Of a DNA stretch of 35,361 nucleotides, positions 16,989 to 21,041 are shown in pieces. This DNA is from Clostridia bacterium (GTDB taxonomy: Bacteria > Bacillota > Clostridia > Oscillospirales > CAG-272): NCBI GenBank assembly GCA_017621085.1, contig JAGATW010000104.1, forward strand, positions 1-35,361, read 5' to 3'. The position numbers were made by a program, and so were the translations under genes. The notes below the pieces were generated by a model. That model had not been told where the DNA came from and did no database searches. It saw only the letters and a program-made list of their open reading frames with translations. Each line of letters starts with the position of its first letter. The first letter of the stretch is position 1.

Positions 16989-16992
16989 AGTT

Positions 16993-17535
16993 ATGGAGCT
17001 TTTTGAAAAGAAGCTTAGCTCACGTCAAATTTTTGATGGTGTTGTAGTTAAGCTATATGTTGATGATGTTGAATTACCAAACGGTAAAAAATCCGTGCGT
17101 GAGGTTGTGCGCCATCCGGGTGCTGTTTGCGTAGTACCTGTAACCGACGAGGGTGAGGTAATTATGGTACGTCAATTCAGATATGCCTTTAATCAGGTGC
17201 TTTTAGAGGTGCCTGCCGGTAAATTAGAGCCAAACGAGGACCCACTTGAGGCTGCGCTTCGTGAGCTTGAGGAGGAAAGCGGAGTTGTAGCAAGCAAGGT
17301 TGAGCATATTGGCGAAATATACACAACCGTTGCAATTATTGACGAAAAAATTCATGTTTACTTGGCAACAGGATTAACATATAAAAATGCTCATCCTGAT
17401 GATGATGAGTTTTTAGAGGTTGAAAAAATTCCTTTAAAAACCCTTGTTGATATGGTTATGAACGGTGAAATTAAGGATTCCAAAACTCAAATTGCTATTT
17501 TAAAGGCAGATAAAATACTATCGGAAAGAAAATAA
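16993..17535 (+). CDS. ADP-ribose pyrophosphatase-like Nudix hydrolase
   Basis: A 180-residue Nudix enzyme of the NudF/ADP-ribose pyrophosphatase type, which splits ADP-ribose into AMP and ribose 5-phosphate. The Nudix box runs from residue 77 to 99 (Gly77, REL then EEE and SG), with an intact acidic metal site. The N-terminal strand region (VREVVRHPGAVCVVPV) is typical of this branch. The start is ATG 16993, with AAAGGA nine or so bases upstream; the in-frame TTG at 16975 lies in the previous gene. It is an operon member. Confidence 0.92.
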   Translation: MELFEKKLSSRQIFDGVVVKLYVDDVELPNGKKSVREVVRHPGAVCVVPVTDEGEVIMVRQFRYAFNQVLLEVPAGKLEPNEDPLEAALRELEEESGVVASKVEHIGEIYTTVAIIDEKIHVYLATGLTYKNAHPDDDEFLEVEKIPLKTLVDMVMNGEIKDSKTQIAILKADKILSERK

Positions 17536-17556: not shown

Positions 17557-18411
17557 ATGAAAAAGGGGTTAGCTGTATTTTTGTCAATATTTATGCTTTT
17601 GTCCCTGTGCCTTTTTTCCTGCGAAGCTGTTGAAAAGGTTAAATATGTGGACATTAAGCTGACAAGCGAGCAATATGCCTTTGGCATAAATAAGGACAAT
17701 TATGCTCTTTATAACGACACCTGCACCCTAATTGACGAAATTAAAAGAGATGGCACGCTTAAAGCCATATTAGATAAGTATTTTTCCGATACTGACGATG
17801 AATATCTATGGGTAAGCGCGGGAGTTGAGAGTGAGGAAAGAAACCAATTAATTGTTGCTACCCACACTCCCTTTTCTCCCTTTGAATTTTCAAAATATGA
17901 TGAAAACAGGAAATTATATTCAGGCATTGATATTGAAATTGCATATCTTCTTGCACAAAGGCTTAACCTTGAGCTTGTTATAAAGGATATGCCGTTTAAT
18001 GAGGTATTGGCAAGTGTTAATAACGGACAAGCCGACATTGCTATGGCAGGAATAAGCATAAGTGATGAACGATGCTTGCTTGTTGACTTTACCGACTATT
18101 ATTATGAAGCATCACAGGTCGTTGTTACAAGAGGCGATGATACACGCTTTAACGGTTGTATGACAAAGCAGGACGTAGAGCTTATTTTAAACAGCTTAAA
18201 TCCCGAAACAACCGTTGGCTATCAAGCAGGCACTACAAGTGAGCTTTACATAAGAGGAAATGAGTCCTTAGGCTTTAAGGGCTATGACCTATTGCCTATT
18301 GGCTACGAGTCCCCTGTCCTTGCAACGCAAGCATTAATAAATGGTAAGGTGAGCCTTGTTATAATGGACAAGGAAGCTGCTTTGTCCATTATAGAAAGCA
18401 TAAACAACTGA
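17557..18411 (+). CDS. Amino-acid-type solute-binding lipoprotein, apparently circularly permuted
   Basis: A lipoprotein (284 residues, Cys22 in the lipobox LFSC) related to polar amino acid binding proteins (SBP_bac_3). Its order is rearranged. Residues 38-78 (EQYAFGINKDN to ILDKYF) look like the last strand and helices of such proteins, and match the C-terminus of the neighbouring binding protein, where EQYAICVNKEN is at 241-251. Residues 98-280 then supply the rest, starting with the family's usual N-terminal strand (LIVATHTPFSPFEF) and ending at VIMDKEAALSIIE, where ordinary members still have about 65 residues to go. Start ATG 17557 follows GGGGTG. It is the last gene of the dut operon, and a normal binding protein follows. 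Confidence 0.88.
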   Translation: MKKGLAVFLSIFMLLSLCLFSCEAVEKVKYVDIKLTSEQYAFGINKDNYALYNDTCTLIDEIKRDGTLKAILDKYFSDTDDEYLWVSAGVESEERNQLIVATHTPFSPFEFSKYDENRKLYSGIDIEIAYLLAQRLNLELVIKDMPFNEVLASVNNGQADIAMAGISISDERCLLVDFTDYYYEASQVVVTRGDDTRFNGCMTKQDVELILNSLNPETTVGYQAGTTSELYIRGNESLGFKGYDLLPIGYESPVLATQALINGKVSLVIMDKEAALSIIESINN

Positions 18412-18441: not shown

Positions 18442-18470
18442 TTGACAATTTGAATATTTAATAGTATAAT
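18442..18470 (+). promoter_or_regulatory. Promoter of the amino-acid ABC transporter genes
   Basis: Perfect TTGACA (18442-18447), 17 bases and TATAAT (18465-18470), 35 bases before the ATG of the second binding protein. Confidence 0.9.
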
Positions 18471-18504: not shown

Positions 18505-19374
18505 ATGAAAAAGATTATTTCAATCGCACTTATTTTGGTAATGCTTTTAGGTTGCATTGGTGCTCTTGCATCCTGTGGCGACAATAGCATTATCGTACAC
18601 ACAAATGCCTTCTTTGCTCCATTTGAATATTATGATGGAACAAATATCGTTGGCGTTGACGTTGAAATTATGAATATGGTAGGTAAGGAGCTTGGCAAGG
18701 ACATTAAGTTTGAAAACGTTGAGTTCTCCGCTATTATCGATAATGTTCAAGCCGGCGAAAAGTGTGATGCCGGTGCTGCAGGTATTACAATTACAGATGC
18801 AAGAAAGGAAAAGGTTGCTTTCTCCGTTCCTTACTACACATCTATTCAGTATGTAATTGTTCCTGCCAACTCCACAATCGCTACAAGAACAGGCGATAAT
18901 GGTGAGTACATAGTTTGGGAGGCTCTTGAGGGCAAAAAGATTGGTACTCAGCTTGACACAACAGGTTGGATTTACACAGACGGTGAAATCAATGCAACAG
19001 AGGACAACGACTACGGCTATGCAGGTACTCTTTACGGTACAAACACAGAGCACAAGGGCTTTGACAATGCTCAGCTTGCAGCTGACGGTATCGCAAGCAA
19101 CATTGTTGACTGCGTAATCATTGACGAGCTTCCTGCTAAGTATATTGTAAGCAAGAACAGTGGTCTTAAGTGCATTCCACTTTACTACTCAGGCGAAACA
19201 CAGGCAGAGGATGAGCCTGTTCAAGAGCAATATGCTATTTGCGTTAACAAGGAAAACACCGAGCTTTTAGACGCTATTAACAAGGTTCTTAATTCCTTAC
19301 TTAACGACAAGGACGAAAACGGTGTTAATGCTATCGAAAAGATGGTTATGAAGCACATGGGCATGGAAAAATAA
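18505..19374 (+). CDS. Amino acid ABC transporter substrate-binding lipoprotein
   Basis: A polar amino acid binding protein (289 residues) in the normal domain order. The signal peptide ends in the lipobox LASC (Cys24), so it is anchored outside the membrane. IIVHTNAFFAPFEYYDG begins lobe 1, with GAAGITITDARKEKVAFSVPYY in the usual place. EQYAICVNKEN (241-251) leads into the final helices. The ligand is unknown. The start at 18505 has GAGGAG upstream; the upstream in-frame codon at 18469 overlaps the -10 box. It is followed by permease and ATPase genes and shares ancestry with the permuted protein upstream. Confidence 0.93.
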   Translation: MKKIISIALILVMLLGCIGALASCGDNSIIVHTNAFFAPFEYYDGTNIVGVDVEIMNMVGKELGKDIKFENVEFSAIIDNVQAGEKCDAGAAGITITDARKEKVAFSVPYYTSIQYVIVPANSTIATRTGDNGEYIVWEALEGKKIGTQLDTTGWIYTDGEINATEDNDYGYAGTLYGTNTEHKGFDNAQLAADGIASNIVDCVIIDELPAKYIVSKNSGLKCIPLYYSGETQAEDEPVQEQYAICVNKENTELLDAINKVLNSLLNDKDENGVNAIEKMVMKHMGMEK

Positions 19375-19438: not shown

Positions 19439-20131
19439 ATGAATTTTTTTGAAAAAATATTTGAGCTTTTCTCTACCGAAAAGTATATGGATATTATTTT
19501 TGAGGGCTTTAAAACCACAGTAATAATTTCCGTTTTTGCTGCAATATTGGGCCTTTTAATCGGTACTATGGTGGCTCTTGTTTCAATTAGCGAGGTTTCC
19601 CCTGTTACTAAGGTTTTAAAGGCTATTTGCAAGGTATATATCACAATTATTCGTGGTACACCTATGGCACTTCAGCTTTTTATAATGGCTTATGTAATAT
19701 TTACCTTCAGAGGCTTCCCAGAGGAGGTAACAGCAATTATTGCCTTTGGTATTAACTCAGGTGCTTACGTTGCTGAAAATATTCGTGGCGGTATTCTCTC
19801 CGTTGACATCGGTCAAACAGAGGCGGGAAGAGCTCTTGGCTTAACAAGTCGCGTAACAATGTTTAAAATAGTAATTCCACAGGCGATAAAGAATGTTATT
19901 CCTGCTATTGGTAATGAGCTTATCGCTCTTATTAAGGAAACATCTATTGTCAGTATGATTGGTATGTTTGACTTAACTATGGCTGCAAAGATTATCGGTA
20001 GCGGTAACAATATGGCAAGCTATGTTGTTCCTATGAGTGTTGTTGCTTTGTTCTACTTGGCAATTGTATATTTACTTACCTTTGCTATTAAGCTTATAGA
20101 AAAGAGGTTGAGAGCAAGTGATAAGCGTTAA
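19439..20131 (+). CDS. Amino acid ABC transporter permease
   Basis: A 230-residue permease of the HisM/GlnP family with about five membrane helices. RGTP at 72-75 and the cytoplasmic coupling loop ([15 protein letters not shown], 128-142) are typical of polar amino acid uptake systems. The start ATG has GAGGA nearby. It overlaps the ATPase gene by 14 bases. A single permease gene implies a homodimer. Confidence 0.93.
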
Positions 20132-21041
20132 CAATATATATAAATATTTTGGGGACTTAAAGGTTTTAAACGGAGTTTCCTGTGAAATTGAAAAGGGTGA
20201 GCGAATTGTTATTATCGGTCCGTCCGGCAGTGGCAAAAGCACACTTCTTCGCTGTATGAACTTACTTGAGCATCCAACCTACGGTGAGGTTTGGGTAAGC
20301 TCCAAGCTTTTAACTCCGCCTGACCCATATTTGCATTTTGATGTAATTAAAAAATCAAAAACCTATAATTCTTTATTTGAGCAGTTGAAGGCTGAAAATC
20401 CTAATTTGAGTGATAACGAGCTTGAAGAAATGGCTATTAAGAAAATTAAGGCTGAGGACCTTCTTAAAAAGTATGAGGGTAGTGAATACAAAAAGGCTTT
20501 AAAGCAAATTACTAAGGACTTTGGTATTGATATTAACTTAGCCCGTCAAAATATGGGAATGGTTTTCCAGCACTTTAATCTTTTTAATAACCTGACCGTA
20601 ATTGATAATTTAACCTTAGCTCCCGTTCAGCTTGGACTTAAAACTAAGGAAGAGGCTGAAAAAACAGCTATGGAGCTACTTAAAAGAATTAACTTAGAGG
20701 ACAAAAGGGATGAATATCCATCAAAGCTTTCAGGTGGTCAAAAGCAACGTATTGCAATTGTACGTGCCTTGGCTATGAGCCCTGATGTTATGCTCTTTGA
20801 CGAGCCTACAAGCGCTCTTGACCCTGAAATGGTTGGAGAGGTTCTTGATTTAATTAAGGAGCTTGCAAACGAGGGAATGACAATGGTTATTGTTACTCAC
20901 GAAATGGGCTTTGCCCGTGAGGTTGGCACACGTGTTCTATTTATGGATGGCGGCGTTATTGCAGAGGAAGGAGCTCCTTCCGAGCTGTTTGACAATCCTA
21001 AGAACCCACGTACTGTTCAATTTTTAAAGGCCGTCTTATAA
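20118..21041 (+). CDS. Amino acid ABC transporter ATP-binding protein with an insertion
   Basis: The ATPase that drives the preceding permease. Walker A is GPSGSGKS (34-41), the Q-loop is VFQHF (Gln151), the signature is LSGGQ (204-208), Walker B is VMLFDE (224-229), and a switch His lies in VTHEMG. The start is GTG inside the permease gene, preceded by GAGG. At 307 residues it is about 65 longer than usual GlnQ-type proteins. The extra segment (about 66-138, Lys/Glu-rich and probably helical) sits between Walker A and the Q-loop, where family members normally have around 20 residues. Confidence 0.93.

Follow-up and report, generated by a model that had tools for sequence, protein, structure and literature searches.

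The 35,361-nucleotide contig JAGATW010000104.1 of Clostridia bacterium assembly GCA_017621085.1, referred to here in its full length as the window, carries between a NUDIX hydrolase gene and an amino-acid ATP-binding cassette (ABC) transporter operon a gene for a 284-residue predicted lipoprotein, P0001. P0001 belongs to the SBP_bac_3 family of substrate-binding proteins (SBPs) by its PF00497 score (Table 1). It falls short of the NCBIfam cut-off for TIGR01096, the lysine/arginine/ornithine SBPs (90.8 bits against 256.35), and, being an SBP_bac_3 protein, lies outside type Ic / cluster Bc, the Tp0684-like class with a type I fold and a permuted N lobe. Cys22, which follows a hydrophobic stretch and by eye predicts a lipoprotein, is invariant in 74 of 74 rows of alignment A3. 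The same is true of Arg172 and Asp271, which align with an Arg and an Asp of AncQR (4zv1) and presumably hold the alpha-carboxylate and alpha-amino group of the ligand as in solved SBPs. Three segments of P0001 are distinguished below: N (residues 28-77), M1 (residues 95-196) and M2 (residues 214-281). In normal-order proteins these run M1-M2-N, the canonical cluster F order of lobe 1 first part, lobe 2 and lobe 1 last part, whereas P0001 runs N-M1-M2 (lobe 1 last part, lobe 1 first part, lobe 2), termed form A. The third rotation, M2-N-M1, is termed form B. The SBP_bac_3 amino-acid binder LAO-BP is classed as type II / cluster F (PMC5087393).

The preliminary description of this locus had proposed a circular permutation, in which the front of the chain matches the usual SBP C-terminal end, specifically that of the neighbouring SBP (P0002), and the rest of the chain is the remaining SBP, after which it stops. 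Profiles built from 36 normal-order SBPs bear out this arrangement. The profile of their C-terminal segments matches P0001 residues 33-75 with 32.3 bits (E 3.7e-12, search of one sequence), against 5.9 bits for the best of 1000 shuffled copies. The M1 profile matches residues 98-190 with 88.4 bits (best of 1000 shuffles, 8.2) and the M2 profile residues 219-278 with 28.1 bits (best of 1000 shuffles, 4.4), and the three matches stand in exactly the order N, M1, M2. These scores carry a mild circularity, as the 36 proteins were chosen with models originally grown from form-A segments. Comparison with AncQR by phmmer recovered the same parts in rotated order, with residues 95-280 on chain positions 9-176 (66.1 bits) and, weakly, residues 28-77 on 183-232 (12.0 bits, independent E-value 1). 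The chain stops at the end of lobe 2, and the usual last part has no counterpart at its C-terminus. As in a circular permutant, every segment is present once, the order is rotated, and a linker runs across the old termini. The pairwise match to P0002 (residues 38-65 against 241-268) was rejected as proof: its score of 44 was equalled by 30 of 2000 shuffles, and profiles were therefore used in its place.

Structure prediction, which had been suggested as a check, returned a confident AlphaFold model of P0001 (predicted local distance difference test, pLDDT, 94; predicted template modelling score, pTM, 0.84). Together, phmmer, profiles and the model identify the parts of segment N as those that form the C-terminus in normal-order proteins. 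Weaker support comes from couplings between the moved N segment and M1, which resemble those in normal proteins. No solved chain with form-A order was found among the best 60 of 111 rows of structural matches, a tandem-domain junction in 6h30 excepted. Both Foldseek and VIA-align follow chain order, with most of 50 rows starting at model residue 90-97 and seven at 46-48; residues 28-77 were barely covered, and their absence from the matches is thus no evidence. We conclude with high confidence that P0001 has a lipid-anchored SBP_bac_3 (type II, cluster F) fold that is circularly permuted at the second lobe crossover.

In such a protein the last strand and helices of lobe 1 would come after the lipobox and fold back in cis onto lobe 1, with a linker of ~20 residues bridging the old termini. 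The chain would end in lobe 2, the lobes would be joined by one covalent crossover rather than two, and the lipid anchor would lie at the loose end left by cutting the hinge strand. As the preliminary description proposed, the permutation may also put the anchor on a different side of the fold and alter how the protein docks to its permease. Since Arg172 and Asp271 are kept, P0001 should still close on an amino acid, which would be bound via these two residues and handed to an ABC permease. Segment N might instead complete lobe 1 of another chain, either in a domain-swapped dimer or in a neighbouring SBP. The sequence fits cis or trans alike, and the linkers (18-36 residues from one segment boundary to the next, in 34 listed proteins) permit either. 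In cluster F proteins the two termini are on one and the same lobe, as described for LAO-BP (PMC5087393), so such linkers are able to join them in cis. In addition, the single-chain model is confident, and no second SBP adjoining the permuted gene was detected in most of the 80 related loci described below. A swap is on these grounds very unlikely, and folding in cis is preferred.

A profile search of genome contigs with the form-A alignment yielded 97 relatives, of which 80 were kept, at least 12 of these on contigs that another search had also given. Every one of the 80 runs N-M1-M2. In 69 of them a permease gene lies no more than 600 bases behind the permuted gene, with an ATPase gene next in 65. 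In four others (L081, L121, L130 and L131) form A and the permease constitute one open reading frame (ORF) of 516-528 residues; the permease is fused at the form-A C-terminus, in lobe 2, and anchor and permease therefore hold different ends of the cut protein. The remaining seven comprise L055 (at a contig end), L058 (with an incomplete second SBP ahead of the contig end), L052 (arranged as in the window), L053 (an A-B pair) and the Riflebacteria loci L113, L117 and L122 (no nearby transporter). Among the taxa named in record titles of the relatives are Clostridia, Oscillospiraceae, Lachnospiraceae (P6B14 being one), Erysipelotrichaceae, Bacilli and Riflebacteria. Transfer or contamination could account for records of the last three taxa, and for the three Riflebacteria genes a transfer combined with a role apart from transport is possible. 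Metagenome-assembled genomes (MAGs) are the source of most loci, which might point to assembly artefacts. The order recurs in 80 distinct records and in 16 species of one genus, and also in L116 (Lachnospiraceae bacterium P6B14), whose record is not titled a MAG, making such artefacts extremely improbable.

The preliminary description had also suggested examining how widespread the order is in Clostridia. In a class sample of 118 genomes, own genome included, with order verified by segments, the permuted order was present in at least 20 of the 117 others. Form A was found in 14 (G063, G074, G101, G114, G118, G129, G136, G143, G145, G156, G162, G163, G167 and G170), form B in eight (G074, G086, G095, G106, G118, G134, G159 and G168) and both in two. 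The count is a lower bound because only part of the matches was fetched. Form B is assigned on weaker evidence in G067, G144 and G146; in the G067 locus, L138, it was called by eye and by its place in alignment A6, as the segment model missed M2. The classifier was checked on 20 presumably normal loci (L152-L171), all of which came out M1-M2-N, with M2 of L164 in two pieces. L144 (G126), a full-length permuted candidate, also came out normal by segments. In a phylum-wide sample of 249 genomes (E ≤1e-45, at most nine candidates scored per genome), matches were confined to the window's own genome and two others of its class, G143 and G168; permuted families with weaker matches may exist outside the class.

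Permuted and normal orthologues coexist inside one genus, g81, the source of both L143 (form A) and L157 (normal). Matches were obtained in 56 of its 59 genomes. Sixteen span the whole form-A query (its own genome plus 15 with 81-87% identity), and 40 start at query residue 81 or later, with 65-88% identity over the shared part. Segment analysis of 14 of these 40 gave M1-M2-N in every case; the other 26, one of them partial, were judged by match range alone. A permease lies beside the gene in all 16 form-A loci and in all but one of the 14 normal loci, the exception being a locus that ends early; on the other flank a gene with a product starting like MKR.LILGCN is found in 10 of 16 and 11 of 14, respectively. 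At the DNA level, the move concerns ~150 bp, taken from the gene's 3' end and placed directly behind the lipobox: L143 3850-3998 corresponds to L157 2076-2224 (L157 read on the reverse strand) with 81% identity, in colinear flanks sharing 67% identity upstream and 83% over 65 bp downstream. The deeper rows of the g81 tree are normal and one change suffices for the 16 form-A rows; the fork holding them is unresolved and takes in eight normal rows.

A careful tree of 75 rows, based on 200 columns placed in one common order, needs 12 order changes. One clade (100/99) unites the 17 rows of the window's form-A family with four form-B rows nested in it, suggesting an origin of this form B from form A by a second rotation. 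By eye, the linker, which is unique to permuted chains, is similar in the nested form B and form A (e.g., VESA..D..Q before LVVATN) and different in other clades. The approximately unbiased (AU) test rejects one clade for all form-A rows (2e-107), all form-B rows (6.5e-4) and all permuted rows (7.2e-4). The window permutation seems to be one of several independent ones, at both lobe crossovers, in SBP_bac_3 proteins of Clostridia. The alternative is a single ancient permutation, with the mixed tree due to poor resolution and the nearby normal proteins being reversions. It is helped by the small number of columns (200), by parsimony being blind to gain versus loss, by 11 of 72 inner branches drawn open, and by the eight normal rows of g81, a clade beside the form-A rows where reversal is possible. 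Given the AU rejections, the clade-specific linkers and the normal deeper rows of g81, where one change is enough, a single origin is very unlikely, and we favor several.

Form B is cut at the first crossover or ~25 residues past it. It was also seen in G003, where it accompanies form A at a locus of the window's genus, in G013 beside another form A, and in G014, G029 and G041. Some larger proteins hold units in the M2-N-M1 register and end in a permease: one unit each in L147 and L148, two in L151:2061-4304 (747 residues), three in L146:2203-5190 (995 residues) and four in L150:620-4291 (1223 residues). In the arrays several M2 matches score low, at 7-12 bits for some units. The spacing at array-internal junctions resembles that of normal and permuted proteins, and the sequence thus fits units folding as M2-N-M1 or as M1-M2-N with the array ends paired; the first and last parts of an array could pair, closing a ring. 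In the model of a form-B protein (L053, 5420-6250; alignment A5), residues 24-72 and 74-91 have pLDDT below 50 and most of the rest ~97, with a pTM of 0.67. Fragments were added for depth to form-B alignments A4, A5 and A7, MAFFT misplaced some of them, and the M2 rows of A5 were of no help. Two further architectures were observed. L149:1978-3702 (574 residues) has M1 directly followed by N, with M2 apparently missing, a possible one-lobe binder within a larger protein. A separate SBP subfamily (L091:1983-2882, L145, L177, L190 and L191) has four form-A rows, one form-B row and no normal row in the set; in the form-B row the segment model finds only N-M1, and M2 was judged by eye.

In the standard model, a circular permutation originates by duplication and then loss of both ends. 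In 6h30, which we take to consist of GlnPQ-type tandem substrate-binding domains, the end of domain 1 plus domain 2 presents the form-A order (profile positions 41-270 on chain 187-395), whereas each domain by itself is in normal order according to the phmmer pieces. A tandem of this type is a plausible kind of intermediate. More speculatively, and with considerable doubt on our part, chain order could be fluid in Clostridia, through repeated re-cutting at either crossover, selection for a moved anchor or permease fusion, and arrays as a source. Selection would favor re-cutting because the lipid anchor or the permease fusion would end up on another lobe, tuning opening, closing or docking. Permease-fused arrays in form-B register would then amount to rings laid out seamlessly in a line; any rotation could be excised from them, and they may be that source.

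Table 1. Features at the permuted gene of the window and in its surroundings.
Feature	Position	Strand	Basis or remark
NUDIX hydrolase gene, upstream	16990..17535	+	label by eye
Permuted form-A SBP_bac_3 lipoprotein gene (P0001, 284 aa)	17557..18411	+	ORF; PF00497 101.9 bits, curated cut-off 26.4
Hydrophobic leader/signal peptide and lipobox ending at Cys22	17557..17622	+	by eye
N segment, residues 28-77	17638..17787	+	hinge strand 2, last lobe-1 strand, two helices
Linker, residues 78-94	17788..17838	+	ties old C-terminus to old N-terminus
M1, residues 95-196	17839..18144	+	initial part of lobe 1, with the first crossover
Arg172, within M1	18070-18072	+	
M2, residues 214-281	18196..18399	+	most of lobe 2, close to chain end
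Asp271, within M2	18367-18369	+	
Promoter-like site TTGACA-17-TATAAT, between permuted gene and normal SBP gene	18442..18470	+	12/12 consensus
Normal-order SBP_bac_3 lipoprotein gene (P0002)	18505..19374	+	distant paralogue
Amino-acid ABC permease gene, neighbouring operon	19439..20131	+	
ABC ATPase gene, neighbouring operon	20118..21041	+	

The permuted gene had been described as lying outside the transcription unit of the transporter and next to its normal paralogue. The first statement fits the window, where the gap before P0002 contains a putative promoter, a consensus match that alone reaches 12/12 among the 43 sites of ≥9/12 in 7.4 kb (expectation, 23.8). It does not extend to a general rule, given the permeases that follow or are fused to most of the kept relatives. 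P0002 does have the normal order. With 30% identity to P0001 over query residues 95-236 and a place elsewhere in the tree, it is a distant paralogue and not the parent or unpermuted twin of P0001. The downstream operon is nearest to other operons with normal SBPs: SBP, permease and ATPase score 430, 337 (336.6) and 523 bits against those of L189, and 203, 236 and 532 bits against those of L181. Outside the relative L032, the permease of L189 is the nearest to that of the window, and form-A-adjacent permeases reach at most 212 bits (16 rows listed). The window ATPase is also near that of L092 (467 bits), which follows a form-A gene, and this counts against kinship with the normal operons. At 307 residues the window ATPase is similar in length to those of L181, L189 and L092 (305-307), while the others among the 16 rows listed have 240-285; by eye, the additional residues of the long ATPases precede the signature region, in the first half of the protein.

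Of 13 same-genus form-A loci, 10 have a NUDIX homologue upstream of the permuted gene. Seven of 14 same-genus loci (L032 aside) read NUDIX, a gene of ~335-345 codons whose product by eye resembles a membrane protease, form A, permease, ATPase, NUDIX. The window and G025, and probably G006 (contig end), have no permease right after form A; a normal SBP, permease and ATPase are found there instead. The window gene is an orphan upstream of another amino-acid transporter, and may feed that permease.

Several points weigh against reading P0001 as a permuted protein that still serves as a binder. It is 74% identical to its L032 counterpart, versus 90-96% for its neighbours, and it has no permease of its own; faster change combined with this lack makes drift conceivable, and the protein could be drifting toward another role. 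The uniform order of the 80 kept relatives is partly by construction and not an unbiased rate, as they were found with a form-A query. The top-20 coupling overlap is weak (3 versus 0.9 expected, with 28 of 500 shifts as high), both sets are shallow (51 and 38 effective sequences), and the null model is crude. In form A, segment N couples most strongly through Thr55-Thr179 and Thr55-Leu132, neither of which is leading in the set of normal and form-B proteins; Tyr52-Leu230, the strongest of that set, is in turn not leading in form A. The location of segment N in space is implied by pTM and couplings.

Taken further, the window gene might be a decaying remnant that has lost its C-terminus and whose front segment is left over from a fused neighbour. 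The lack of an own permease in the window, G025 and probably G006, as well as the faster change relative to the neighbours, would fit such decay. Comparison with L032 gives dN 0.168 and dS 0.911 (dN/dS ~0.18), indicating a constraint weaker than on the neighbours, with the frame intact in both species. The same architecture in all 80 kept relatives and the conserved ligand residues also oppose a remnant, which we consider highly improbable. Judging from the sequence, P0001 is most likely a working permuted amino-acid binder.

Tp0684 (MglB-2) of Treponema pallidum was proposed to be a naturally permuted glucose binder of type Ic / cluster Bc (PMC4990184). Like form A, it is a natural permutation of a lipid-anchored ABC binding protein; it binds glucose, changes conformation and has relatives in Gram-positive gut bacteria (PMC4990184). 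Tp0684 is a type I / cluster B sugar binder in which N-lobe strands are reordered and a fourth crossover is added (PMC4990184), whereas form A is a type II amino-acid binder with one of its two crossovers cut. Glycine-betaine and molybdate binders were linked as permuted by CPSARST (PMC2395249). As here, the relationship is between binding proteins with conserved pocket positions; however, identity is below 24% in any pair of the proteins compared (PMC2395249) and those permutations look old, whereas same-genus orthologues here reach 88% over the shared part. The closest design is an engineered lysine sensor in which LAO-BP (argT), also of cluster F, was cut at one crossover and its termini tied by a flexible (GGS)4 linker (PMC5087393). 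Lysine binding persists, but at 107 uM within the sensor; the value quoted for the native protein by itself is 3 uM, and the authors ascribe the loss to the permutation and the fused fluorescent proteins (PMC5087393). Unlike form A it is man-made, with weakened binding, and is without a lipid anchor or permease context; by analogy, a permuted design would be workable, perhaps at a cost. No naturally permuted SBP_bac_3 protein was found in the literature searched, in which subscription papers were thinly covered, and a text search of CIRPIN (PMC12667903) for binding-protein terms gave no match. Natural permutation itself is known in other SBP classes, and the unusual points here are its recurrence and the pair within one genus.

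Natural circular permutations have mostly been inferred between old, barely similar proteins. With permuted and normal orthologues of up to 88% identity and similar neighbours in one genus, the origin of a permutation, its cost in stability or affinity and the reason for its retention become directly testable. Profile annotation hides this topology: P0001 matches SBP_bac_3 like any other member despite its different chain order, and the resulting difference in the position of the membrane anchor is equally invisible. Biosensor designers cut such proteins in a similar manner (PMC5087393), and nature may offer optimised solutions. The order of parts in a very common binding protein, which gut Clostridia seem to have re-cut several times, thus appears less fixed than assumed.
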